Of a stretch of DNA of 33,067 nt, positions 6,276-33,067 are shown one piece after another (the stretch's first letter is position 1; each line of letters opens with the position of its first letter). The DNA comes from Marinibacterium profundimaris. Lineage in GTDB: Bacteria; Pseudomonadota; Alphaproteobacteria; Rhodobacterales; Rhodobacteraceae. The position numbers and the translations under genes are program-made. The notes beneath the pieces are model-generated. The model saw nothing but the letters and a program-made list of their open reading frames with translations, was not told where the DNA came from and did no database searches. The stretch is taken from the NCBI RefSeq assembly GCF_002210095.1, contig NZ_AQQR01000033.1, positions 1 to 33,067 of the forward strand, read 5' to 3'.

Positions 6276-6968
6276 TCATGCCGAACACCCGATCTTGACC
6301 GCCCGGATCGCGGGATCGACCCGCCGGAACCCGGCCAGCAGCTGCGCGGTCAGGTGCGTGCGCACGTAGTCGGCCACGAACCGGCTGGGCGCGACCAGTT
6401 CCGCGACGCCGTCGCTTACCTCCACCTCGGTCAGCTGCGCGTACCAGACCCGCGCGGTGGCCGCGTCGCGCTCGGCCAGCATCCGCAGCACCCGGGTCCA
6501 TGTGTCGTCGCCCGGCTCTGCCGCCGGCGCGGGCCGCTGGAACGGCACCACCGTCGGATCGGCCTCGGGTTCGGGCGCCGGCGCCGCGCCAAGCCGGTCC
6601 GCGAAATCCGGACCCAGCCTGTCCCAGACCGCGCGGGTGTCCGACAGCACCTGGTCGAAGTCGATCTCGTAGACCGTCACCCGCCCCTTCGCCGGGGCGC
6701 GCTTGATCCGCAGCCAGCCGGCGGCGCGCAGCTTTGCCAGCTCGCGCTTGACGGTGCGTTCGTCCACCGACCACAGCCGCGCGATCTCGGCCCGTCCGAT
6801 CGACAGTTCGCCGCTTTGCCAGTTGTAGCGGGTCGTCACCAGGATCATGACGCGCAAAACCATCCTCTGCCGGTGCTTGTCACCCGACAGGGCATGCGCG
6901 CCAAGCGCCGAGAGGATATCGTACTTCATGGCCGCGGCATTGCGCCCGACCGCCCGTGTCGCCAGCAT
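6276..6968 (-). CDS. Plasmid replication initiator, DnaA-like type
   Basis: This 230-residue protein has an N-terminal winged-helix part (about residues 14-105, with 'GRAEIARLWSVDERTVKREL'), a Pro/Ala/Glu-rich linker (about 125-150) and a C-terminal domain. That C-terminal domain follows the pattern of the DnaA N-terminal domain (W...ML...WYAQL...DGVAELVAPSRFVADYV). There is no AAA+ ATPase domain and no DnaA domain IV. This organisation matches the 'DnaA-like' plasmid initiators described in Rhodobacterales. The start at 6968 has a modest GGAG; Met14 (6929) has none. It is divergent from parAB across an iteron-bearing spacer, which is probably the origin. Confidence 0.82.
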   Translation of the reverse strand: MLATRAVGRNAAAMKYDILSALGAHALSGDKHRQRMVLRVMILVTTRYNWQSGELSIGRAEIARLWSVDERTVKRELAKLRAAGWLRIKRAPAKGRVTVYEIDFDQVLSDTRAVWDRLGPDFADRLGAAPAPEPEADPTVVPFQRPAPAAEPGDDTWTRVLRMLAERDAATARVWYAQLTEVEVSDGVAELVAPSRFVADYVRTHLTAQLLAGFRRVDPAIRAVKIGCSA

Positions 6969-7185
6969 CCTTGGCTCCGCTCGATGTGTCCGGGGTCAAC
7001 CCCGCCTCGGTATCCGGTTATGATCGGCGCTGGACCCGGGGGCAGCCCCTGCCCCAACGCTTTTCCGGACTTGAGCCCAATTAGCGTCCAAGAGCGCGAT
7101 TCTGTCAAGAGGCGTGCCGGATCAGACCCTTGGCCACCGCATCCCCTTCCCCAATTCAAAATGAATTCGGTGAAGATAATGGTGA

Positions 7186-7265
7186 TGGGGGACGGTCAGG
7201 CTGTCCCCCCAACGGGCCGTGATGTCCCCCCAAGACCTCGAGCCGCGGCCGGTGGTGTCCCCCCA
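7186..7265. repeat. Candidate iterons (TGTCCCCCCA)
   Basis: Direct copies of TGTCCCCCCA lie at 7202-7211, 7223-7232 and 7256-7265. An inverted, one-base-shorter copy (TGGGGGAC) is at 7186-7193. Start-to-start distances of 21 and 33 bases are close to two and three helical turns, so bound proteins would sit on one face of the DNA. These are the likely initiator sites. Confidence 0.55.
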
Positions 7266-7368
7266 TCTGTGGTGGGTCCGGCAGGATCCCGGCGACCAAG
7301 GACAGGGCCGCCCGCGACGGCGGGCGAATCGCGCGGCCTCTTGAAAGATCCGGCAATTTCCGGCGCCG

Positions 7369-7388
7369 GTCTTACCCACGGGTAAGAC
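7369..7388. promoter_or_regulatory. Candidate parS partition site, copy 1
   Basis: A palindrome with nine-base arms (GTCTTACCC / GGGTAAGAC) flanks a two-base centre, 96 bases upstream of the parA ATG. Its 16-bp core CTTACCCACGGGTAAG recurs exactly inside parA and inside parB. Placement before the par operon fits a ParB-binding centromere and possibly an autoregulatory operator. Confidence 0.72.
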
Positions 7389-7483
7389 ACCCGTTTCAGA
7401 TTATTTCATTTTACAGAGAACGCAAATCCGGCGTAAATGCGGAAACGAGGCGAAACAACGTCCGGCATATCATGGAGGCAGGC

Positions 7484-8791
7484 ATGTATACCCACGAGGA
7501 TCTCGGCACGCTGCAGAACCAGTCGCTGAAACTGCAGGGCTGGATCCGGCAGCAGACCTTTTCCCCCGAGCTGAAGAAGACGCTCAGGCGGTTTTCGTCC
7601 TGGGAGGTGGCCGAGCTGATCTTCAAGGTGAACCAGAGCACGTTCCGCGGCAAGCTGGCCGCCGATCCCTCTTTGCCCGCCGGCGAGGTCGAGCCGGACG
7701 GGCGGCAGCGCTGGTTCTCATTGGAAGAGATCAACGAGCTGCGCCGCCGGCTCAAGATCAACCGCAAGAGCCTGATGCCCACCCGTCCCGCCGGCAAGCG
7801 CGCGGTGCGCGCGGCGGTGGCCAATTTCAAGGGCGGCGCCGGCAAGTCCACCGTGGCGCTGCATTTCGCCCATGCCGCGGCGCTTGACGGGTACCGGGTT
7901 CTGGTCGTCGATTTCGATCCGCAGGCCACGCTCAGCCATTCCATGGGCCTGACCGACGTGTCCGAGGAACATACCGTCTGGGGCATCATGGCCCGCGACC
8001 TGATCCGCGAGACGGAGCGGATGAACCGCGGCCCTGTCGGTGCCGAGAGCGGCACCGCCCTGCCCCAGCGCCACCTGCCCGAGGCGATCACCGGCCTTGG
8101 CCTGGGCGAATTGCGGATCGACGATTTCATAAAGCCGACCTCCTGGCCCACGATCGACGCGATCCCCTCCTGCGCCAATGCCGCCTTCGTCGAATTCGCC
8201 AGCGCCCAGTATCGCCACCTGAACCCGGACTGGTCCTTTTTCGCCGCCGTGTCGCGGTACCTCGATCAGATCCCGGACGAAAGCTATGACCTGATCGTCT
8301 TCGACTGCCCGCCGGCCATCGGCTACCAGTCGATGAACGCGGTCTTCGCGGCCGACGTGCTGTATATCCCGTCGGGGCCCGGCTACTGGGAATACGACAG
8401 CACCACCTCCTTCATCGGCCAGCTGTCCGAGGCGCTCGAAGATCTCTCCTACGGGTTCGACGGGACCTTACCCACGGGTAAGATCGCGCTGCCCAAGGCG
8501 TTCTACGACATCCGCTTCCTGCTGACCCGGTACGAGCCCGGCAACGAATTGCACCGTGCGATGCTGGAAGCCTTTCGTAAGGTGTTCGGTGATCTTGTGA
8601 CCGACAACCCGGTCGAGATGACCCGCGCGGTCGAACAATCGGGGCGGTTCCTCAGCTCGGTCTACGAGATGGATTACCGCGAGATGACACGCGAGACCTG
8701 GCGCCGCGCCCGGTCCACCTTCGATAATGCCTATGACGAATTTCGCGCCTCGGTCCACGGCGCCTGGGAGAAAATGGAGGCAGGGGAATGA
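7484..8791 (+). CDS. parA: ParA-type partition ATPase
   Basis: From ATG 7484 the protein has 435 residues; GGAGG five bases upstream decides this start over ATG 7472, which has no ribosome site. The N-terminal third carries a MerR/HTH-like DNA-binding region ('FSSWEVAELIFKVNQSTFRG', 'FSLEEINELRRRLKI'), as in long plasmid ParA proteins. The deviant Walker A motif is 'FKGGAGKST', followed by 'VLVVDFDPQATLS' and a Walker B-like 'YDLIVFDCPPAIGY'. With ParB it positions plasmid copies before division and probably represses its own promoter. Residues 328-333 (TLPTGK) are encoded by the partition-site palindrome, with a TTA leucine codon that is unusual here. Its stop overlaps parB (ATGA). Confidence 0.93.
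   Translation: MYTHEDLGTLQNQSLKLQGWIRQQTFSPELKKTLRRFSSWEVAELIFKVNQSTFRGKLAADPSLPAGEVEPDGRQRWFSLEEINELRRRLKINRKSLMPTRPAGKRAVRAAVANFKGGAGKSTVALHFAHAAALDGYRVLVVDFDPQATLSHSMGLTDVSEEHTVWGIMARDLIRETERMNRGPVGAESGTALPQRHLPEAITGLGLGELRIDDFIKPTSWPTIDAIPSCANAAFVEFASAQYRHLNPDWSFFAAVSRYLDQIPDESYDLIVFDCPPAIGYQSMNAVFAADVLYIPSGPGYWEYDSTTSFIGQLSEALEDLSYGFDGTLPTGKIALPKAFYDIRFLLTRYEPGNELHRAMLEAFRKVFGDLVTDNPVEMTRAVEQSGRFLSSVYEMDYREMTRETWRRARSTFDNAYDEFRASVHGAWEKMEAGE
8467..8482. promoter_or_regulatory. Candidate parS partition site, copy 2 (inside parA)
   Basis: CTTACCCACGGGTAAG is identical to the core upstream of parA. The identity with the parB copy extends to 22 bases (8462-8483 against 9670-9691). It is read as Thr-Leu-Pro-Thr-Gly-Lys in parA. 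Confidence 0.7.
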
Positions 8792-9885
8792 GCAGGAAAC
8801 GCAGGATGTTCGACATCGACGTGCCCGACGTGGACAGCATTCCGGTCGGCAAGGCGCCCGAGACGATCGTGCCGTCGCGGCGTGGTCCGATGGCGGCGGC
8901 GATCTCGGAAAACGCGGGATCGCTGCGCGACCGGCAGGCGGCCGAAGACAGCATCCGGGCCGAAAACGACAGGCTGGCGCTGGAATTCGTGGAGCTCAAG
9001 CGCGCCGGTCTGATCGTCGACCGGGTGCCGCTGGACCAGATCGTGACCGAACGCCTGGTGCGGGACCGCAAGCCCGGCCCGGACGAAGAGCTGGACGAAC
9101 TGAAGGGATCGATCCGCGAGATCGGCCTGTCGAACCCCGTGCGGCTGGAACGCCGCGAGGACGGCCGGTTCGAGCTGGTGCAGGGCATGCGGCGGCTGCA
9201 GGCCTATCGCGCGCTGCTGGAGGAAACCGGCGAGGATCGCTTTGCCAGGATCCCCGCCGGCATCGGCGCGCAGGAGGCCGAGACGCAGCTGAGCTATCGG
9301 CGGATGGTGGACGAGAACCTGATCCGCAAGGATATCTCCTTTGCCGAGATGGCGACGCTGGCGCGGCGCTATGCCGAGGATCCGGCGAACGACTGCGCCG
9401 AGGTGTCGGAGGCCGTCGCGCAGCTGTTCAAATCGGCCAGCTACACCAAGCGCAGCTATATCCGCGCCTTTGCCGAACTGCTTGCGCGGCTCGACAAGGT
9501 GCTGATGTTCCCGCAGGAGATCCCGCGCAACCTGGGCGTGGAGCTGAAACGCCGGATGGACAACGACGACGGGCTGGTTGCCCGGATCTCGACCGCGCTG
9601 CGTTCCGCGCCCGAGCGGGACGCGGCGCAGGAGGTCGAGATCCTGCGCGGGTTCCTGGGCGAAGGGGAGGGGACCTTACCCACGGGTAAGACTGCGGCTG
9701 CGAAGCCCGCCAAGCCCCGGCAGGCCAAGACGACCTTCCAGGTGCCGGTGGACACCGGTGTCGCACGGTGCAACGCCTCGGACGGACGGCTGGAGCTGCG
9801 GCACGACCTGGATTTCTCGTCGGTCGATCGACACAGCCTGGAACGCGCGGTGGCGGCGTTCTTTAAGGCTTTGGAGGACGAATAG
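8788..9885 (+). CDS. parB: ParB-type partition protein
   Basis: This 365-residue protein shows the ParB/Srx core: 'ELDELKGSIREIGLSNPVRL' then 'FELVQGMRRLQAYRAL' (the family box usually reads GERRxRA). A central helical region follows ('LSYRRMVDENLIRKDISFAE'), which includes the DNA-binding HTH. The arrangement resembles RepB/ParB of alphaproteobacterial plasmids. It is coupled to parA by an ATGA overlap and has its own ribosome site (GGAGGCAGGGGA). Residues 296-301 (TLPTGK) come from the third copy of the palindrome, in a low-complexity part of the C-terminal region, where an inserted peptide would do little harm. It should bind the palindromes and load onto plasmid DNA. Confidence 0.92.
   Translation: MSRKRRMFDIDVPDVDSIPVGKAPETIVPSRRGPMAAAISENAGSLRDRQAAEDSIRAENDRLALEFVELKRAGLIVDRVPLDQIVTERLVRDRKPGPDEELDELKGSIREIGLSNPVRLERREDGRFELVQGMRRLQAYRALLEETGEDRFARIPAGIGAQEAETQLSYRRMVDENLIRKDISFAEMATLARRYAEDPANDCAEVSEAVAQLFKSASYTKRSYIRAFAELLARLDKVLMFPQEIPRNLGVELKRRMDNDDGLVARISTALRSAPERDAAQEVEILRGFLGEGEGTLPTGKTAAAKPAKPRQAKTTFQVPVDTGVARCNASDGRLELRHDLDFSSVDRHSLERAVAAFFKALEDE
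9675..9690. promoter_or_regulatory. Candidate parS partition site, copy 3 (inside parB)
   Basis: This is the third exact copy of CTTACCCACGGGTAAG, 1208 bases after copy 2 and 2304 after copy 1. It again encodes Thr-Leu-Pro-Thr-Gly-Lys with the codons used in parA. Confidence 0.7.
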
Positions 9886-9952
9886 GGCAGGGGGCGACCC
9901 AGCGGCGCAGACCTTTTACCATTATATATCAATGTCTTAACGTACTTGAATC

Positions 9953-9982
9953 GGGGGCCGTGGCGCAGGACGCCTGGCCCCC
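9953..9982 (+). terminator. Strong hairpin after parB
   Basis: Outer arms GGGGGCC / GGCCCCC enclose an inner GGCG-CAGGA-CGCC stem, 67 bases after the parB stop. No T-run follows, as is common in GC-rich alphaproteobacteria. It probably separates parAB from the importer operon. Confidence 0.6.
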
Positions 9983-9991
9983 AAAACCTGC

Positions 9992-10019
9992 TTGCACTGC
10001 CGATGTGAGGATATGTAAT
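9992..10019 (+). promoter_or_regulatory. Candidate promoter overlapping the 20-bp palindrome
   Basis: TTGCAC (9992-9997), a 16-base spacer and TGTAAT (10014-10019) resemble -35 and -10 boxes. The -10 box lies inside the palindrome, so a bound repressor would block it. Confidence 0.4.
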
Positions 10020-10033
10020 GTTATAACATTACA
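10014..10033. promoter_or_regulatory. Perfect 20-bp palindromic operator, Zur-box-like
   Basis: TGTAATGTTATAACATTACA is its own reverse complement over all 20 bases. The core ATGTTATAACAT matches the general form of proteobacterial Zur (zinc uptake regulator) sites as I remember them; other Fur-family regulators are possible. It is AT-rich within GC-rich surroundings and stands upstream of the cobalamin riboswitch and importer genes, so the operon may answer to two signals. Confidence 0.6.
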
Positions 10034-10111
10034 CACACGCGCAGAGACGAACCGGCAGCACCGCGATGAAGACAGGTTTGAGATCCCAGGACCCATCCGT
10101 CGGGTTGCGGC

Positions 10112-10140
10112 TTGACCAAAGGCCCGCGACCCGGTCTATT
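10112..10140 (+). promoter_or_regulatory. Second candidate promoter just before the riboswitch
   Basis: TTGACC (10112-10117), a 17-base spacer and TCTATT (10135-10140) would start RNA at about 10147, right at the aptamer. It is an alternative or addition to the promoter at 9992. Confidence 0.4.
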
Positions 10141-10144
10141 GCAC

Positions 10145-10328
10145 GGGATGGTGTCCGGGATGGTCTGCATTTCCGGATGAAAAGGGAATGCGGTGCGGCG
10201 TCCAAGGGCGCCAATTCCGCGACTGCCCCCGCAACTGTGAGCGGTGAGCGACCCCGGGAGACCCACTGGCCAGACATGGTCGGGAAGGCTCGGGCAAGCC
10301 GTGACCCGCGAGTCAGGAGACCTGCCAT
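10145..10328 (+). promoter_or_regulatory. Cobalamin (vitamin B12) riboswitch
   Basis: The conserved blocks of the cobalamin aptamer appear in order: AAAAGGGAATGCGGTGC, then GACTGCCCCCGCAACTGTGA, then CCACTGG, then GGGAAGGC, then GACCCGCGAGTCAGGAGACC with CTGCC. Spacing is normal for the family. It precedes an ABC importer of the BtuCDF/FecCD type, so high adenosyl- or methylcobalamin should shut the importer off. Downstream, AGGAGG at 10365-10370 could pair with CCTCC at 10420-10424, which would suit control of translation initiation; this expression-platform idea is inference. Confidence 0.93.
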
Positions 10329-10376
10329 CGTGACATCAACTTTGACCGGGCGGGGTGCTCCGGCAGGAGGTCCGAA

Positions 10377-10595: not shown

Positions 10596-11378
10596 ATGAC
10601 CGCACCGCACGCCGCCACCTTGCAGGCAGAGGGGCTGAGCTGGGGTCCGAAACGGGGCCTGACGCTTTTGCAGCCGACCACCTTCGGGGTGGGCGCGGGC
10701 CGGATCCTGGCCGTTGTCGGGCCGAACGGGGCGGGCAAGTCGACCCTGCTGCGGCTGCTTTACCGCTACCTGCGGCCCACGTCCGGGCGGGTCCTGCTGG
10801 ACGGGGCGGACATCTGGGCGCTGTCCGCGCGCGAGGTCGCGCGGTCGGTCGCGGTCGTCCTGCAGGAGCAGCCGACCGACTTTGCCCTGACCGTGGGCGA
10901 GATCGTGGCCCTGGGCCGCACCCCGCACCTGCCGGCCAGCGCCAGCGGCGGCGAGGCCGACGCGGCCATCGTGCGCGATGCGCTGGCGCGGCTGGGGCTT
11001 GCCGGCTTCGCGCACCGGCTGTTCGGATCGCTCTCGGGCGGCGAGCGCCAGCGGGTCATGGTGGCCCGGGCGCTGGCGCAGAACCCGCGCCTTCTGATCC
11101 TGGACGAGCCGACCAACCACCTGGACATCCGACACCAGCTGGAGCTTTTGGCGCTGATGCGCGATCTTGGCCCCACGATCATCACCAGCCTGCATGACAT
11201 CAACCTGGCCGCCCGGGTGGCGGACGAGGTGCTGGTTCTGGCCGGCGGGCAGCTGATGGCCTGCGGCCGCCCCGACGATGTCCTGACCGAAGAGCTGATC
11301 GCCCGTGCCTTCGGCGTCCGCGTGCACCGCCAGTCGCTGAAGCCCAGCGGCGATGCGCATCTGACCTTTCACCTATGA
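10596..11378 (+). CDS. ABC importer ATPase, BtuD/FecE type
   Basis: This 260-residue ATPase has Walker A 'VGPNGAGKST', the Q-loop in 'VVLQEQPTDFALTVGEIVALG', the ABC signature 'LSGGERQRV', Walker B 'LLILDEPTNHLD' and the switch histidine in 'TSLHDINLAARVAD'. The 'GRTPH' after the Q-loop and the overall length match ATPases of FecCD-type (siderophore, haem and cobalamin) importers. It is the first clear gene after the cobalamin riboswitch, so a corrinoid or a cobalt-related compound is the likely cargo. Gene order is ATPase, binding protein, permease. No outer-membrane TonB receptor is on this plasmid, so a chromosomal BtuB-like receptor would be needed. Confidence 0.92.
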   Translation: MTAPHAATLQAEGLSWGPKRGLTLLQPTTFGVGAGRILAVVGPNGAGKSTLLRLLYRYLRPTSGRVLLDGADIWALSAREVARSVAVVLQEQPTDFALTVGEIVALGRTPHLPASASGGEADAAIVRDALARLGLAGFAHRLFGSLSGGERQRVMVARALAQNPRLLILDEPTNHLDIRHQLELLALMRDLGPTIITSLHDINLAARVADEVLVLAGGQLMACGRPDDVLTEELIARAFGVRVHRQSLKPSGDAHLTFHL

Positions 11379-11409
11379 CCATCACTACCGCGCCGGAAAG
11401 GCCCGCTTC

Positions 11410-12345
11410 ATGAAATACCTGATCACCTCGCTTGCCCTTGTCGCCGTCACCCCCGCGCTGGCCGATCCCGTCACCGTGCAAAGCTGCGACCGCGAGGTCA
11501 CCTTCGACGCGCCGCCGCAAGCGGCCGTGTCGAACGACATCAACCTGACCGAGATGATGCTGGCGCTGGAGCTGACCGACCACATGGTCGGCTTCACCGG
11601 TATCAACGGCTGGAACAAGATCGACGAGGAAATGCGCGCAGGCATCGGCGCGCTGCCGGAACTGGCCGAGAAATACCCCTCCAAAGAGGTGCTGCTGGGG
11701 GCAGGGGCCGATTTCTACTTTGCCGGCTGGAACTACGGCATGCGCGTCGGCGGCGAGGTCACGCCCGAGACGCTGAAGCCCTTCGGCATCCAGGTCTACG
11801 AGCTAACCGAAAGCTGCATCCATATCATGGACAAGCCCGAGGCCAGCATGGACGACATGTACAACGACCTGCTGAACCTTGGCGCGATCTTCGGTGTGCC
11901 CGACCGGGCGCAGGCGCTGGTCGATGGCTACAGGGCCGATCTTGACGCGGTCCTTGCCGATCTGCCACCGCTGGACCGCGCGCCGCGCGTCTTCGTGTAC
12001 GACAGCGGCGAGGACACGCCTTTCACCGCCGGGCGCTATGCCATGCCGAACGCGTTGATCGAGGCCGCCGGGGGCACCAACATCATGAAGGATTTCGAGA
12101 AAAGCTGGGGCACGGTAAACTGGGAACCAGTGATCGAGCGCAACCCCGAGGTGATCGTGATCGTCGATTACGGCGAGGTCACGGCCGAACAGAAACGCGC
12201 CTTCATGATGGGAACGCCGGCCTTCGCCGATCTTGACGCGGTGAAGAACGACCGGTTCGTGGTTCTGGATTACGTCGAGGCGACGCCGGGCCCCCGCAAC
12301 ATCCGCGCCGTGCGCAAGCTGGCCGAAGGGTTCCGGGCGGAATGA
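11410..12345 (+). CDS. Periplasmic binding protein of the B12-controlled importer (BtuF/TroA fold)
   Basis: This protein has 311 residues with a typical cleavable signal peptide ('MKYLITSLALVAVTPALA'). The mature part has the two-lobe pattern of helical-backbone binding proteins: 'CDREVTFDAPPQAAVS' and 'INLTEMMLALEL' in lobe one, 'KEVLLGAGADFYFAG' in the middle, and 'NPEVIVIVDYG' near the end. It delivers substrate to the permease encoded immediately downstream, with an ATGA overlap at 12342. Cysteines are present in 'VQSCDREV' and 'TESCIHIM' and could form a disulfide. Riboswitch context favours cobalamin or cobinamide; an iron or zinc chelate is the alternative, especially given the Zur-like box upstream. 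Confidence 0.88.
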   Translation: MKYLITSLALVAVTPALADPVTVQSCDREVTFDAPPQAAVSNDINLTEMMLALELTDHMVGFTGINGWNKIDEEMRAGIGALPELAEKYPSKEVLLGAGADFYFAGWNYGMRVGGEVTPETLKPFGIQVYELTESCIHIMDKPEASMDDMYNDLLNLGAIFGVPDRAQALVDGYRADLDAVLADLPPLDRAPRVFVYDSGEDTPFTAGRYAMPNALIEAAGGTNIMKDFEKSWGTVNWEPVIERNPEVIVIVDYGEVTAEQKRAFMMGTPAFADLDAVKNDRFVVLDYVEATPGPRNIRAVRKLAEGFRAE

Positions 12346-13388
12346 CGGATCGCGCCGTCTCGGTCCCCGCGCGCCGCGCGTTTGTCCTGCCGTCGCTGTC
12401 GGTTCTGGGGCTGGCCGCCGTGATCATGTCGATCTCGGTCGCGGTCAGCGTGGGGGCGGTGACGGTGCCGCTGGGCACGGTCTGGGGCGTGGTGGCCGAC
12501 CGGATCCTGCCCGGCCTGATCGAGCCCTCCTGGAGCACGGGCCAGTCGGCCATCGTCTGGGACATCCGCCTGCCGCGCGCGCTGCTGGCGGCGATGGTCG
12601 GCGCCGGGCTGTCGCTGGTGGGCGCCAGCCTGCAGTCGGTCACGCGCAACCCGCTGGCCGATCCGCATCTTCTCGGGATTTCGGCCGGCGGCGCCTTTGG
12701 CGCGATCCTGGCGCTGCTGCATACGGGCCTGTTCATCGGATTGCTGACGGTGCCCCTGCTGGCCTTTGCCGGGGCCATGACCACGGCCCTGCTGGTGCTG
12801 GGGATCACCAGCGCCACCCGGTCCACCGGCGCCGACCGGCTGGTGCTGGCCGGCGTGGCCGTGTCGTTCATCGTGATGGCCTGCGGCAACCTGTTGATTT
12901 ACCTTGGCGATCCGCGCGCGATCCACACGGTGATCTTCTGGATGCTGGGCGGCCTTGGCCTGGCGCAGTGGGATCAGCTGATCTATCCGCTGGTGGTTCT
13001 GATCGGATGCGGCGCCTGGCTGATGTCGCGAAGCCGGCGGCTGAACGCGATGACCATGGGGGACGAGACCGCCTCGACCCTGGGGATCCCGGTGGCGCGG
13101 TTCCGGCTGGCGGTGTTCTTCGTCGGCGCGCTGCTGACCGGCTGCATGGTGGCGTTCTCGGGCATCATCGGGTTCGTCGGCCTGATGGTCCCGCATATCG
13201 TGCGGATGCTGGTCGGCGGGGATTACGCCCGCGTCCTGCCGTTTTCGGCCCTGATCGGGGCAATCTTCCTGGTCTGGGCGGATATCGCGGCGCGGACGGT
13301 GATGAAGCCCGACGACCTGCCGATCGGAATTGTCACCGGGCTGATCGGCGGGGCGTTCTTCGTCTGGCTGCTGAGCCGGCGCAGCTGA
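12342..13388 (+). CDS. FecCD-family ABC importer permease (BtuC-like)
   Basis: This 348-residue integral membrane protein has about nine to ten hydrophobic segments and FecCD hallmarks: 'WDIRLPRALLAAMVGAGLSL', 'SVTRNPLADPHLLGISAGGA', 'VGFIGLMVPHIVRML'-like sequence near residue 280 and 'DLPIGIVTGLIGGAFFVWLL' at the end. It forms the homodimeric channel for the ATPase and binding protein upstream. The start overlaps the binding-protein stop (ATGA). It ends the riboswitch-controlled operon; an inverted repeat overlaps its stop. Confidence 0.92.
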   Translation: MTDRAVSVPARRAFVLPSLSVLGLAAVIMSISVAVSVGAVTVPLGTVWGVVADRILPGLIEPSWSTGQSAIVWDIRLPRALLAAMVGAGLSLVGASLQSVTRNPLADPHLLGISAGGAFGAILALLHTGLFIGLLTVPLLAFAGAMTTALLVLGITSATRSTGADRLVLAGVAVSFIVMACGNLLIYLGDPRAIHTVIFWMLGGLGLAQWDQLIYPLVVLIGCGAWLMSRSRRLNAMTMGDETASTLGIPVARFRLAVFFVGALLTGCMVAFSGIIGFVGLMVPHIVRMLVGGDYARVLPFSALIGAIFLVWADIAARTVMKPDDLPIGIVTGLIGGAFFVWLLSRRS

Positions 13389-13453: not shown

Positions 13454-13533
13454 GCCGGGACCTTCGCACGGGCCCCGGTGGATCACCTGGGTGCGCGGAG
13501 GATCGTTTCAGCCGGGGCCCGGATCGGGCCGGT

Positions 13534-13558
13534 GAAACCAGTCGACCCGTTGCGCGTT
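13534..13558 (+). promoter_or_regulatory. Candidate EcfG-type stress promoter for ku-ligD
   Basis: GAAAC (13534-13538), 16 bases, CGTT (13555-13558) lies 46 bases before the ku ATG. It differs by one base from the general-stress consensus GGAAC-N16/17-CGTT. The same GAAAC-N16-CGTT spacing occurs before the aldehyde dehydrogenase gene. Confidence 0.4.
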
Positions 13559-13603
13559 GGATGTGTAAGGCACATCTCCAAGCGGACCGAGGAGGCAACG
13601 ATC

Positions 13604-14425
13604 ATGGCATCGCGCGCAGTCTGGAAAGGGCAGCTGCGGCTGTCGCTGGTGTCCATCCCGGTCGAGATCCACTCGGCCCGGAACGCCTCGGGCAAGGTGT
13701 CGTTCCGCCAGATCCACGCGCCTTCGGGCAAACCCGTCCGCTACCAGAAGACGGTCAAGGGTGTCGGGCCGGTCGAGACCGACGACATCATGAAGGGCTA
13801 CGAGACGGACGACGGCGATTACATCCTTCTGGACAAGGACGAGATCGACGCCATCAAGCTGGAAACTCGCAAGACGCTTGAGCTGGTGCAGTTCGTCGAG
13901 ACCCGCGAAATCGCCCCGATCTGGTTCGACCGGCCCTATTACGTGGTGCCCTCGGACGAGCTGGCCGAGGATGCCTATCGCGTGATCCGCGACGCCCTGC
14001 GCAGCACCGGCAAGGCGGGGCTTGGCCAGCTGACCATGCGGGGCAAGGAATACCTTTGCGCGATCCGCCCCTGCGGCGACGGGCTGCTGATGGAAACGCT
14101 GCATTACGAGAAGGACATCCGCGACGCCGATCCGCTGTTTTCCGGGATCGAGGACGAGGCCTCGGACGAGGAGCTTCTGGAGGTCGCGACCCAGCTGATC
14201 GAGAAGAAGACCGCGCCCTTCGATGCCTCGGCCTTCGAGGATCATTACGCCTCGGCGCTGCGCGATCTGATCGCGGCGAAGATGAAGAACAAGAAGACGC
14301 CGCGCGCCAAGGCGCCGGAGGACGACGGCGGGGAGGGCGAAAACGTCGTCGACCTGATGGATGCGCTGAAGAAAAGCCTCAAGCAGGGCAAGGGCGGCTC
14401 GGGCCGCCGGAAGAAGGCATCATGA
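13604..14425 (+). CDS. ku: Ku, DNA end-binding protein of bacterial NHEJ
   Basis: This 273-residue protein starts 'MASRAVWKGQLRLSLVSIPV', the usual beginning of bacterial Ku. The start at 13604 has GGAGG eight bases upstream; longer in-frame readings are not Ku-like. The core beta-barrel region includes 'VRYQKTVKGVGPVETDDIMKGYE' (shown in part), and the C-terminal tail is Lys-rich (extension and minimal C-terminus, 'KSLKQGKGGSGRRKKAS') as expected for DNA sliding and LigD recruitment. Ku forms a ring on double-strand break ends and recruits LigD, which is encoded next with an ATGA overlap. Plasmid carriage of a complete end-joining pair is known but uncommon. Confidence 0.97.
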   Translation: MASRAVWKGQLRLSLVSIPVEIHSARNASGKVSFRQIHAPSGKPVRYQKTVKGVGPVETDDIMKGYETDDGDYILLDKDEIDAIKLETRKTLELVQFVETREIAPIWFDRPYYVVPSDELAEDAYRVIRDALRSTGKAGLGQLTMRGKEYLCAIRPCGDGLLMETLHYEKDIRDADPLFSGIEDEASDEELLEVATQLIEKKTAPFDASAFEDHYASALRDLIAAKMKNKKTPRAKAPEDDGGEGENVVDLMDALKKSLKQGKGGSGRRKKAS

Positions 14426-16872
14426 GATCGCTCGACGCCTACGAGAAGAAGCGCGATTTCGACGTCACGCCCGAGCCGCGCGCCGCCCTGGTCGAGGCCG
14501 GCGGCAACCGGCTGTCCTTTACGGTGCAGAAACACGATGCCAGCCGCCTGCATTACGATTTCCGGCTGGAATGGGGCGGCGTGCTGCTGTCCTGGGCGGT
14601 GACAAAGGGGCCGTCCGCCGACCCGTCGCAGAAGCGGCTGGCGGTGCGCACCGAGGATCACCCGGTGTCCTACGGCGATTTCGAGGGCACGATCCCCGAG
14701 GGGGAATACGGCGGCGGCCCCGTCATGCTGTGGGACACCGGATGGTGGGAGCCGCTGCATGATCCCGAGGAGGGGCTGAAGGCGGGCAAGCTGCATTTTC
14801 GCCTGCACGGCACGCGCATGAGGGGCGGCTGGGCGCTGGTGCGGATGCGCCGCAAGAAGGGCGAGACGCGCGACAACTGGCTTCTGATCAAGGAGCGCGA
14901 CAGCCATGCGGGGCGCAGCGCCGACGCGCTGACCAACAAACACCGGACCAGTGTTTCTACGGGCCGTGCGATGCGGGCGATCCGGCAGGGAAGGGACCCC
15001 TATGAGCCGGTCCCGCACGACAAGCCGCTGCCGCGCTTTCGCAAGGTGCAGCTTGCCACGCTGCGCGACGCCCCGCCCGAGGGCGACGGATGGCAGCACG
15101 AGGCCAAGTTCGACGGCTATCGCTGCCTGATCGCCGTGGGCAAGGGCGGCGTTCGGCTTTACACCCGCAACGGCAAGGACTGGTCGGACCGGTTCGGCGC
15201 GCTTTGCGCCCCGGCGGCGACGCTGGACTGCCGGTCGGCGCTGATCGACGGCGAGGTGATCGCCGGGGCAGGGGGCGGCGATTTCTCGGCGCTGCAAACG
15301 GCGCTGAAGGCGGGCGATCCGCTGACCTTCCACGCCTTCGACCTTCTTGCGCTTGATGGCGATGACCTGACCGGCAAGCCCCTGTCGGAACGTCGAGCGG
15401 TCCTTGAGGATCTGTTGCGCGACCAGCCGCCGCGCGGGCCGTTGCGGCTGAGCCCGGTGATCGACGGGGACGGCGCGGCGGCCCTTGCCGCGATCTGCGA
15501 GGCGGGGGGCGAGGGGATCGTCTCGAAGCGCCGGGATGCGCCTTATCGCGGCGGGCGCGGACAAAGCTGGATCAAGGCCAAGTGCATCCGCCGGGCCGAA
15601 TTCGTCGTCGCCGGCTGGTCGCCCTCGGACAAGCGGGGCAGGGCGTTTTCCTCTCTTGTCCTGGGGAGTTTCGAACACGACCGGCTTGTCTACCGGGGCC
15701 GCGTGGGGACCGGGTTCGACCAGCAGGACCTCGATGATCTCATGGCGGCGCTGAAGCCGCTGTCGCGCAAGACCGCACCCTTCGACGAGGACCTGCCGTC
15801 GGAGGCGGAGGGGTCGCGCTGGGTCACGCCGAAGCTGGTGGTCGAGGTTGCCTATACCGAATTCACCAGCGAGGGCCGGATCCGCCATGGGGTCTATGAG
15901 GGCCTGCGCGAAGACAAGGAGGCCCGTGACGTGAGTGCAGAGGCGGAAGCCGGGACCGACAGCGGGACCGAAGACGACGACCGGCAGATCGGAGGCGTGC
16001 GGATCTCGAGCAGTGGGCGCGTCGTCTACCCCGACGACGAGATTTCGAAGGGGGATGTGGCGGAGCATTACGCGCGCGTGGCCGGGCGCATGCTGGAGCA
16101 CATCGCGGATCGCCCGCTGTCCCTGCTGCGCTGCCCCGACGGCCTGTCGGGCGACTGCTTTTTCCAGAAACACGCCGGCAAGGACTTTCCCGACGGGATA
16201 AAGACCCTGCCGATCGAGGAAAAGGACGGCGGGACAGAGGATTACATGTATGTCACCCGACCCGAGGGCCTTCTGGGTGCGGCGCAGATGGGCACTTTGG
16301 AATTCCACATCTGGGGCGCCCGCCGCGACCGGATCGAGAGGCCCGACAGGATGGTCTTCGACCTCGATCCCGACGAGGGCCTGGGCTTTGACGCGGTGAA
16401 GGCGGCGGCGGAGGACGTGCGCGACGGGCTGCAGGCCTGTGGCCTGGAAAGCGTGCCGATGGTCACCGGCGGAAAGGGCGTGCATGTCATCGTGCCGCTG
16501 CGCCGCATCTCGGAATGGGAAACGGTGACCTATTTCGCCCGGACCTTCGCCACCGTGCTCGCCGGGCGCGCGCCCGACCGCTACACCGCGACCATGTCGA
16601 AGGCCAAGCGCAAGGGCAGGATATTCATCGACTGGCTGCGCAACGAACGCGGCGCCACCGCCATCGCGCCCTATTCCCTGCGGGCCCGGCCCGGTGCGGC
16701 GGTCGCGGTGCCGGTCACCTGGGACGAACTTGCGCGGCTGGAGCGGCCGGACGGGTTCCACATCGGCGACATGGCCGACCGCCTGTCGCGGTCCTGCCCC
16801 CTGGACGCGGCCGACGCGTCCGGGGTGGGGGCCACGGCCGTCGATGCGCTGGAGACATGGTCCCAGGGCTGA
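14422..16872 (+). CDS. ligD: LigD, multifunctional NHEJ ligase (PE-LIG-POL order)
   Basis: This protein has 816 residues with three domains. Residues about 1-170 form the 3'-phosphoesterase ('HDASRLHYDFRLEW' with H44, 'EGTIPEGEYGGGPV'). Residues about 200-500 form the ATP-dependent ligase, with the nucleotidyl lysine K229 in 'AKFDGYR' and further motifs 'DGEVI', 'EGIVSKRRDAPYR' and 'WIKAKC'. Residues about 520-816 form the primase-polymerase, with metal-binding D647 and D649 in 'FDLDPDEG' and 'GGKGVHVIVPL'. The order PE-LIG-POL is the Pseudomonas-type arrangement. All key residues I can check are present, so the enzyme should process, fill and seal broken ends held by Ku. Confidence 0.97.
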   Translation: MRSLDAYEKKRDFDVTPEPRAALVEAGGNRLSFTVQKHDASRLHYDFRLEWGGVLLSWAVTKGPSADPSQKRLAVRTEDHPVSYGDFEGTIPEGEYGGGPVMLWDTGWWEPLHDPEEGLKAGKLHFRLHGTRMRGGWALVRMRRKKGETRDNWLLIKERDSHAGRSADALTNKHRTSVSTGRAMRAIRQGRDPYEPVPHDKPLPRFRKVQLATLRDAPPEGDGWQHEAKFDGYRCLIAVGKGGVRLYTRNGKDWSDRFGALCAPAATLDCRSALIDGEVIAGAGGGDFSALQTALKAGDPLTFHAFDLLALDGDDLTGKPLSERRAVLEDLLRDQPPRGPLRLSPVIDGDGAAALAAICEAGGEGIVSKRRDAPYRGGRGQSWIKAKCIRRAEFVVAGWSPSDKRGRAFSSLVLGSFEHDRLVYRGRVGTGFDQQDLDDLMAALKPLSRKTAPFDEDLPSEAEGSRWVTPKLVVEVAYTEFTSEGRIRHGVYEGLREDKEARDVSAEAEAGTDSGTEDDDRQIGGVRISSSGRVVYPDDEISKGDVAEHYARVAGRMLEHIADRPLSLLRCPDGLSGDCFFQKHAGKDFPDGIKTLPIEEKDGGTEDYMYVTRPEGLLGAAQMGTLEFHIWGARRDRIERPDRMVFDLDPDEGLGFDAVKAAAEDVRDGLQACGLESVPMVTGGKGVHVIVPLRRISEWETVTYFARTFATVLAGRAPDRYTATMSKAKRKGRIFIDWLRNERGATAIAPYSLRARPGAAVAVPVTWDELARLERPDGFHIGDMADRLSRSCPLDAADASGVGATAVDALETWSQG

Positions 16873-29596: not shown

Positions 29597-30199
29597 ATGC
29601 TTCATTCCGCCACCACACCCTCCCGCCGGGCCCATGCCCGCACCGATGCGCTGACGCGGTCGCCCGGCCTGACGGGCCTTCTGACGGGCGGGCTGCTGCT
29701 CGCCGCGACCGCCCTTGGCGCCGGCCTGCTGCCGGGTCCCGCCGCGTCTCAGGAGGCCGGGGAGGAGGTCAGCTTTGTCTCGGCCGAGGGCGCCGACATC
29801 GGCACCGCCACCCTCACATCCACCCCCGCCGGGCTGCTGATCGAGCTCGACCTGCACGACCTGACGCCCGAGAGCTGGCACGGGTTCCACATCCACGAAA
29901 CCGGCGCCTGCGATCCCGGCGAAGGCTTCAAGACCGCCGGCGGCCATTTCGCGGGCGATGCCACGGCACATGGGTTCATGGTCGAAGGCGGCCCCCACGT
30001 GGGTGACATGCCGAACCAGTATGTCGCCGCGGATGGCACTCTGAAGGCGCAGGTGCTCAACACCATGGCCATTCTGGGCGGAGAGCAGGACAACGTCTCG
30101 GGGCGCGCGCTGATGCTGCACGGCGGCGCGGACGATTATGAAAGCCAGCCGTCAGGCGCGGCCGGCGACCGGGTCGCCTGCGCGGTGATCCCGGAGTAA
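29597..30199 (+). CDS. sodC: Periplasmic Cu/Zn superoxide dismutase
   Basis: This 200-residue protein has an N-terminal basic region and a long hydrophobic signal ('LTGLLTGGLLLAATALGAGL') ending near 'PAASQE'. Metal ligands are in 'GFHIHETGACD' (two copper histidines), 'GGHFAGDATAHG' (bridging and zinc histidines), 'GPHVGDMPN' (zinc His and Asp) and 'LMLHGGADDY' (copper His). Cysteines in 'GACDPG' and 'RVACAV' should form the structural disulfide. It converts superoxide to peroxide and oxygen in the periplasm, a sensible partner for an alternative oxidase. ATG 29597 has AGGAAGGA about 8 bases upstream; longer readings do not resemble the family. Confidence 0.96.
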   Translation: MLHSATTPSRRAHARTDALTRSPGLTGLLTGGLLLAATALGAGLLPGPAASQEAGEEVSFVSAEGADIGTATLTSTPAGLLIELDLHDLTPESWHGFHIHETGACDPGEGFKTAGGHFAGDATAHGFMVEGGPHVGDMPNQYVAADGTLKAQVLNTMAILGGEQDNVSGRALMLHGGADDYESQPSGAAGDRVACAVIPE

Positions 30200-32098: not shown

Positions 32099-33067
32099 CC
32101 CGCACCCCGCCCGACAGCGCCCTGCCCGGCCCCTCCGGCCCCTGGCCCCCGACCGAGGCGATGCTGAACGAACCGGTCCCCGAGGCCGTACGGACCGCCC
32201 AGGCGGACCGGCTGCGCAAGGCCTGGGAAACGCCGTCGGGCTGGCGCTACTGGACGGCGGTGAACAATTCCGAGGTCGGGCGCTGGTACTGCATGACCGC
32301 GCTGGTCTTCATGCTGATGGCGGGGGTGATGGCCCTGCTGATCCGCGCCCAGCTGGCGGTGCCGGAAAACGACCTGATCCCGGCCGACCGGTTCAACCAG
32401 CTTTTCACCATGCACGGATCGGCGATGATGTTCCTCTTCGCCGTGCCGCTGTTCGAGGCGATCTCGATCCTGCTGCTGCCCGGGATGCTGGGCGCGCGCG
32501 ACATGCCCTTCCCGCGCCTGTCGGCCTATGGCTACTGGTGCTTCCTGATCGGCGGCATCTTCGTCATCGGATCGATCTTCTTCGATGCCGCGCCGCGGGC
32601 GGGATGGTTCATGTACCCGCCCCTGGCGACCGAGGACGAAGGCCCGGGCAGCGACATCTGGCTGCTGGGCCTCAGCTTCATCGAGGTCGCCTCGATCGCC
32701 GCCGCGGTCGAGCTGATCGTGGGCTCTCTGAAATGCCGGCCGCCGGGGATGCGCGTGAACATCATGCCGCTTTATGCCTGGTACGTGCTGGTGGTGGGGG
32801 CCATGATCCTCTTCGCCTTCCCGCCGCTGATCGCCGGGGATTTCCTGTTCGAGCTGGAACGCTCCTTCGACTGGCCCTTCTTCGATCCGACCCGGGGCGG
32901 CGATCCGATGCTGTGGCAGCACCTGTTCTGGATCTTCGGGCATCCCGAGGTCTACATCATCTTCCTGCCTTCGATCGCCATCGCAGCGATGATCATCCCC
33001 ACCGTCGCGCGCCGTCCCATCGTCGGCTATTCCTGGATCGTGCTGTCGGCCGTGGGCACCGGGTTCC
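32095..33067 (+). CDS. coxA: Cytochrome c oxidase subunit I-III fusion, N-terminal part (continues at base 1)
   Basis: These are codons 1 to about 324 of the fusion whose remainder is at 1-1640. The low-spin haem a ligand is H107 in 'LFTMHGSAMMFLF'. The CuB histidine with its crosslinked tyrosine is in 'GHPEVYIIF' (H283, Y287), and E285 is the conserved proton-pathway glutamate. The D-pathway entrance aspartate is present ('GARDMPFPRLSAYGYW'), but the asparagines that usually line this channel in A1 oxidases are replaced. The ATG overlaps the coxB stop. The reading frame continues exactly across the circular join. Confidence 0.95.
   Translation, partial: MTRTPPDSALPGPSGPWPPTEAMLNEPVPEAVRTAQADRLRKAWETPSGWRYWTAVNNSEVGRWYCMTALVFMLMAGVMALLIRAQLAVPENDLIPADRFNQLFTMHGSAMMFLFAVPLFEAISILLLPGMLGARDMPFPRLSAYGYWCFLIGGIFVIGSIFFDAAPRAGWFMYPPLATEDEGPGSDIWLLGLSFIEVASIAAAVELIVGSLKCRPPGMRVNIMPLYAWYVLVVGAMILFAFPPLIAGDFLFELERSFDWPFFDPTRGGDPMLWQHLFWIFGHPEVYIIFLPSIAIAAMIIPTVARRPIVGYSWIVLSAVGTGF
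33026..33067. repeat. Terminal direct repeat, right copy (circular join)
   Basis: These 42 bases equal bases 1-42. See the left copy for the meaning: the ends overlap and the molecule is circular. Confidence 0.93.

Follow-up and report, generated by a model that had tools for sequence, protein, structure and literature searches.

Candidate parS palindromes before and inside the parAB genes of a plasmid from Marinibacterium profundimaris and their counterparts in related modules

The plasmid, its partition genes and the repeated palindrome

The window analyzed in this study, with its 33,067 bp, makes up an entire contig. The terminal stretches of 42 bases (1–42 and 33026–33067) are identical and a reading frame of CoxI is open across the junction, and the contig is thus probably a complete, closed circular plasmid of 33,025 bp. 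Its kind is probably DnaA-like-I. The genes and sites relevant to this study are as follows.

6276–6968, minus strand: DnaA-like replication initiator, divergent from parAB; PF11638 (DnaA_N), E 4.9e-5, 1.2 bits under the cut-off
7371–7386, plus strand: candidate parS-like site 1, exact match, about 86 bp 5' of the parA start; arms reach 7369–7388
7472–8791, plus strand: parA, ParA-type ATPase with an N-terminal extension, 439 amino acid residues; PF13614, E 4.7e-25
8467–8482, plus strand: candidate parS-like site 2, inside parA, codons 333–337 (L-P-T-G-K); conserved slot
8788–9885, plus strand: parB, 365 amino acid residues, overlapping the parA stop by 4 bp; PF02195, E 1.1e-5, 0.5 bit under the Pfam cut-off
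9675–9690, plus strand: candidate parS-like site 3, inside parB, codons 297–301 (L-P-T-G-K); in a linker of the predicted model, pLDDT below 50

The arrangement by which DnaA-like-I replicons are recognized, a DnaA-like replicase gene divergent from parAB, was found in the window, with the DnaA_N match lying just under the cut-off. The gene order is shared with NC_006569 (a megaplasmid of Ruegeria pomeroyi), NZ_CP022541, NZ_CP021409, and CP010860, the last of which is annotated as DnaA-like-I. In pMaD5 of Marinovum algicola, the gene in the same place as the initiator is annotated as "plasmid replication protein DnaA-like-I." The relatives of ParB are annotated as "ParB N-terminal domain-containing protein." A repABC replicon was considered and rejected: different from repABC plasmids, the window has no repC-sized gene after parB, and the matches to TIGR03453 and TIGR03454 were below cut-off (203.6 bits for parA against the RepA model TIGR03453, whose cut-off is 348.45). 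In the stretch from parB to the transporter gene (10596), the longest plus-strand open reading frame encodes 177 amino acid residues and overlaps a riboswitch; judged on its length, we take it to be too short for RepC. This cobalamin riboswitch (10132–10343, plus strand; Rfam RF00174, 123.6 bits) lies 5' of ABC-transporter-like genes at 10596–13388, including a FecCD permease gene at 12342–13388. The plasmid also carries an end-joining pair at 13478–16872 (plus strand), in which Ku is found beside a LigD with ligase, primase-polymerase, and phosphoesterase domains.

The sequence CTTACCCACGGGTAAG occurs in three exact copies in the window, before parA, within parA, and within parB. A scan of both strands at up to three mismatches found no match beyond these three sites, and an equal number of matches was reached in none of 100 shuffles. 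From the base composition, 5e-6 exact copies per strand were expected. Of the 23 palindromes with the 6+2+6 bp design in the window, only those with the arms of CTTACCCACGGGTAAG were seen at least three times. The 14-bp core had three copies in the 6.15-Mb genome, every one in this window. When up to two mismatches were allowed, the genome search added a single match differing at one base and a few differing at two bases, the latter including the two class-II sites on contig C2 (see below). The claim of the sequence-only reading that the 16-mer is present exactly three times thus holds for the window and for the genome of the host, where no other full copy was found. That reading had also called the repeat a 16-bp palindrome. 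The inverted repeat is real, but its central AC is not symmetric, so that the repeat consists of two 7-bp arms around a 2-bp center; the arms extend to 9 bp at site 1. As claimed, both gene copies are read in one frame as Leu-Pro-Thr-Gly-Lys (ParA residues 333–337 and ParB residues 297–301), and the TTA leucine codon is rare, accounting for 2 of the 74 leucine codons of parA and parB, both within the palindromes.

Placement of the sites in relatives and selection on the parA copy

Genome contigs were scanned with ParB and the best 80 of 407 relatives were kept. TTACCC-NN-GGGTAA was found in 45 of these 80 relatives. Together with the window, these 46 TTACCC-type loci contained 144 sites, of which 46 were at the parA slot (i.e., the position of site 2), 43 were upstream of parA (in 43 of the 46 loci), and the remaining 55 were located within the linker of parB, at the end of the gene, or past it. 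The center dinucleotide was purine-pyrimidine in all 144 sites. In 25 of the best 80 of 407 relatives, the last copy falls in a different frame and ends ParB with (L or I)-T-H-G-stop. In these 25 loci (L007 and 24 others), the palindrome overlaps the end of parB and supplies its stop codon, 1090–1096 bp past the parB start, and 24 of them are from Ruegeria records. In cassette C2 of the own genome (L090, 2747–2760), the first three bases of the palindrome nearest parB are TAA, which is also the stop codon of the gene. Among viral contigs, one relative was found.

The sites were largely confined to the partition module. Whole-genome searches covered the own genome and 27 of the 45 relatives, 28 in total. 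The number of genome copies of TTACCC-NN-GGGTAA equaled that of module copies in 24 of them; the others had one (G005), one (G015), two (G020), and three (G023) extra copies. Among the matches listed, the extra copy of G005 had the center CT, unlike all 144 module sites. Of the complete plasmids, which were 10 of the 12 fetched, three had TTACCC-NN-GGGTAA, module-confined in two, while NZ_CP021409 had one extra copy at 29644. TTCCCC-NN-GGGGAA was found in one of the 10, in six copies that were all within the module. Thus, the hallmark of parS, a short inverted repeat with several copies at parAB that is absent or rare elsewhere, was observed.

The arms were compared in a set of 95 loci, comprising the 80 relatives (best 80 of 407), the window, 11 of the 12 fetched plasmid loci, and three cassettes of the own genome; L103, whose parB is unannotated, was left out. 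Slot palindrome and repeated family were both present in 83 of the 95 loci, and in all 83 the slot arms were those of at least one other module site. The slot arms were TTACCC in 49, TTCCCC in 24, GTCCCC in 9, and TTTTCC in 1. The other 12 loci, including pMaD5 (L098) whose slot is TTATCC, lacked a perfect palindrome in phase at the slot or lacked a repeated family. The ParA peptide at the slot followed the palindrome, being LPTGK, FPTGK or FPAGK, VPAGT, FSAEK, or LSADK. As for other places, Paracoccus loci among L052–L082 (TTCCCC-type) had a second palindrome early in parA, about 1112 bp before the parB start, where codons were also invariant, and a palindrome near the parB 5' end, about 57 bp past its start. 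Some GTCCCC-type modules (L102, L163, L170, and L173) had 9 to 11 palindrome copies, six of which in L102 lay beyond +1100 from the parB start.

A wider sample, which overlaps the first set in shared genomes, was drawn from 244 genomes over the order. Matches were found in 99 genomes and 124 places were listed, of which 121 were outside the own genome; 97 of these were fetched, the rest being a fragment of 206 residues and the 23 weakest matches. By ParB score, 75 were assigned to class I and 21 to class II, and L212, which has two stop codons, was set aside. The class-I parA was readable in 71 loci, and the slot palindrome was perfect in 55, had one mismatch in 7, and was missing in 9. In contrast, only 7 of 21,598 control in-frame positions had a perfect palindrome. 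Among the 55 perfect slots, 52 shared their arms with another module site, L158 and L168 were without a second perfect copy, and L205 clashed, with GTCCCC at the slot vs. a TTCCCC core at the other sites. The slot was lost while repeated sites were kept elsewhere in L156, L164, L203, and L207–L209. Hence, related plasmids keep the palindrome, the lack of which the sequence-only reading had named as part of a refutation, but not universally: the slot is dispensable, as nothing close to a palindrome is found at it in 9 of the 71 class-I genes. Read from these comparisons, the parA position is a conserved slot whose arms switch together with those of the whole module.

Codons were examined in a clade defined on a ParA tree built without the slot columns, of which all 50 rows were used, including L026 that has no perfect palindrome. 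An earlier test had used loci selected by palindrome and was circular; its repetition on the tree-defined clade gave the same result. Of 321 amino-acid-conserved degenerate columns of parA, only five had a single codon throughout, and four of these five encode the L, P, T, and G residues at the site. The mean codon identity in the other parA columns was 0.50. The slot leucine codon was TTA in 49 of the 50 rows, the exception being TTC in L026, while elsewhere in the parA and parB genes of the 46 TTACCC-type loci, 125 of 3269 leucine codons were TTA. In a less diverged Paracoccus clade with TTCCCC arms (n = 21), 22 of 345 columns were invariant, among them the slot codons for F, P, G, and K. 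Given the codon invariance at the site and the drift in the rest of parA, the comparison demonstrates selection at the DNA level on the parA site, in agreement with the suggestion of the sequence-only reading that selection acts on DNA and that the shared peptide does not reflect protein homology.

Structural models added little on the ParA side. The AlphaFold2 model of ParA was poor (mean pLDDT of 57.5), residues 301–355, which include the slot, were below 50, and no secondary structure was predicted at the slot. The best PDB relative of ParA by sequence has a gap at the slot position. The slot may perhaps be a loop in ParA. In the ParB model, the site copy sits in a linker (residues 293–311, pLDDT below 50), which, as modeled, is a tolerant place for the site.

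ParB as the candidate reader and the cassettes of class II

At strict purity thresholds, six ParB columns separated the three main site types, and five of the six were in the helices at residues 206–259 of the model (mean pLDDT of 75). These helices hold 21 of the 117 class-conserved ParB columns, corresponding to a hypergeometric probability of 6e-4 for an interval that was picked post hoc and with kinship uncorrected. At a looser purity threshold, 6 of 12 discriminating ParB columns were within 206–259. In ParA, nine columns separated the site types, three of them at the slot and the others scattered. The helix at residues 219–235, which starts at residue 219, was taken as the putative recognition helix of ParB. 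The palindrome type varies with ParB residues in the predicted DNA-binding helices, but mostly along clades. Since the site types mostly follow clades, this covariation rests on few independent events. The G-x-R-R and E-N-x-x-R stretches of ParB, which presumably are the CTP-binding motifs of ParB clamps, were invariant in the 29 sequences compared.

Residue 251 of ParB was V in 49 of 49 TTACCC, L in 27 of 27 TTCCCC, and L in 9 of 9 GTCCCC loci of the first set. In the wider sample, it was V in 8 of 8 class-I and 7 of 7 class-II TTACCC loci, 3 of 3 TTATCC loci, and 8 of 9 TAACCC loci, and L in 25 of 27 TTCCCC and 25 of 26 GTCCCC loci. As the two sets overlap and the pattern is mostly clade-following, residue 251 was set aside as a specificity code. 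In L026, which is inside the TTACCC clade, all seven sites are mixed, with TTCCCC in one half and TTACCC in the other, one of them having a further substitution, and its ParB has L at 251 against V in the 49 TTACCC loci. Judged from its sites, L026 is possibly a specificity switch caught midway. A second case of mixed half-sites was seen in the TTATCC-type loci L098, L172, L179, L181, and L186, where TTATCC and TTACCC halves are often mixed within a site.

Three further ParB cassettes are present in the own genome and have different repeated 6+2+6 palindromes. Cassette C2, which belongs to class II, has TAACCC twice and nowhere else in the genome. Cassette C14 has TTTCGC three times, with one copy also on each of two other contigs, and the TCTCGC pair of C16 is possibly due to chance. 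Thus, the own genome has class-I TTACCC alongside class-II TAACCC. Class I and class II were both found in 10 sampled genomes; arms were called for both in eight and agreed in none, a comparison with little power as none of the eight has class-I TTACCC. The class-II cassettes (C2 of the own genome, L100, and L213–L233), which are of the DnaA-like type but more distant, share the 6+2+6 design with the window, and their arms are TAACCC or TTACCC where a repeated family was found. Different from the window, however, they have no slot palindrome (0 of 21 with one in phase), and their repeated sites are at or just past the parB end (repeated family in 15 of 21, 1067–1231 bp from the estimated parB start). 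The arms are TTACCC, as in the class-I plasmid of the window, in class-II cassettes L218, L221, L223, and L225–L228.

Interpretation and relation to known systems

The palindromes might be operators or iterons for ParA or the DnaA-like initiator, controlling transcription or replication instead of segregation. The N-terminal extension of ParA may contain an HTH, and one copy precedes parA, a position at which the ParA-type proteins of related systems act as repressors. Autorepression by RepA of repABC systems is the subject of PMC4492784. However, positions within parA, within parB, and downstream of parB are odd places for operators, and the type-separating columns of ParA outside the slot are scattered, whereas those of ParB are concentrated in its predicted DNA-binding helices. 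As to the initiator, cassette L106, whose initiator bears a different name ("replication initiator protein A"), likewise carries four repeated 6+2+6 palindromes at its parB. We therefore regard a role as operator or iteron as very unlikely.

Two further explanations, each of negligible probability in our judgment, are that the repeats act in RNA as hairpins of the parAB transcript and that they reflect a shared Leu-Pro-Thr-Gly-Lys protein motif or chance. The 16-mer folds as a 6-bp hairpin with a 4-nt loop and a predicted energy of -6.1 kcal/mol. Hairpins require self-complementarity but not identity between sites, yet the arms are shared across the module. The sole Rfam match in the window was the cobalamin riboswitch, and no terminator-like site was found in 6950–10050. 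Rejection of the RNA hairpin was mainly based on L026, where the mixed halves break a pair at every site, with -2.8 kcal/mol for the mixed 16-mer. As to a protein motif, a peptide similar to that of the slot persists with a broken palindrome in several relatives, namely L178, L185, L190, and L204 (one mismatch) and L187, L203, and L209 (more). This persistence counts against the sequence-only reading, which is supported on the whole: its refuting conditions that were open to computation were mostly passed, and the site codons are invariant in the 50-row clade. This invariance, the copy before the gene, the parB-end copy in another frame, and the shuffles all argue against a protein motif or coincidence, and the codon data led us to reject both.

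In contrast to these explanations, the three palindromes are very probably parS sites that constitute the centromere of a DnaA-like-I plasmid and are bound by ParB. The comparison establishes at the sequence level that the sites are at recurring places in the operon and that their sequence changes jointly across the module and together with residues of the ParB helices that are predicted to read DNA. From this, we infer binding of the sites by ParB and a role in segregation. A ParB dimer would read each palindrome, with one subunit per half-site, and would thereby load on the plasmid both at its own operon and inside it, after which ParA would move the ParB-bound plasmid. Site 1, before parA, may in addition serve to repress the operon, which we only infer, as a promoter scan of the coding strand upstream of parA found nothing. 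We further propose, tentatively and with some doubt, that the slot is a fixed place in the parA coding sequence, that parS and the ParA residues encoded there are rewritten as ParB specificity changes, that the mixed half-sites of L026 represent a switch under way, and that placement within genes is selected.

In a 2011 abstract by Petersen and colleagues (Mol Biol Evol 28:1229), conserved palindromes in the DnaA-like module are reportedly given as probable centromeric anchors, with two compatibility groups. The DnaA-like-I modules of Rhodobacterales and the window both have a DnaA-like replicase with parAB; the slot with switching arms is drawn here from sequences. A parS is also found inside spo0J, a parB-type gene of Bacillus subtilis. 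That site shares the placement in a parB-type gene but belongs to a chromosomal system, has another consensus, and is not a parA slot. Thus, palindromes in DnaA-like modules, as reported, and intragenic parS are known kinds.

In repABC plasmids, palindromes are established compatibility-specific partition anchors, as stated in three sources (PMC5613091, PMC3910702, PMC3910554), and parS sites inside genes are described in PMC9040568. Similar to the sites of the window, the repABC parS/inc palindromes are short, often several per module, and compatibility-group-specific, and some are at the repB 5' end or in other genes, according to the relevant passages of PMC5613091 and PMC9040568. In the same passages, those of Rhodobacterales are mainly between or downstream of genes and those of Rhizobiales mainly before repA and around the repA/repB junction; for neither do the passages give a fixed position in the ParA-type gene (PMC9040568, PMC5613091). 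No description of a fixed slot with a switching sequence, of a replicon in which all seven sites are mixed, or of a palindrome-supplied parB stop was found in the literature searched, which was largely openly available. What may be new is the locking of the slot in position, the concerted switch of the arms, and the site at the stop codon.

If placement within genes is selected, it would, for example, stop the exchange of parA or parB between plasmids without a matching centromere; alternatively, ParB loaded there would respond to transcription of the operon. With five arm types at one codon position and mixed intermediates, centromere specificity may be read from DNA and traced through switches. 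The ParB residues 218, 219, 229, 248, and 251 form a short candidate list for specificity swaps. How specificity changes in partition systems without loss of the plasmid is hard to study and would be testable here. Moreover, the class-II cassettes with TTACCC arms are predicted to interfere with the plasmid of the window, and the slot arms may offer a simple compatibility typing of DnaA-like-I plasmids.
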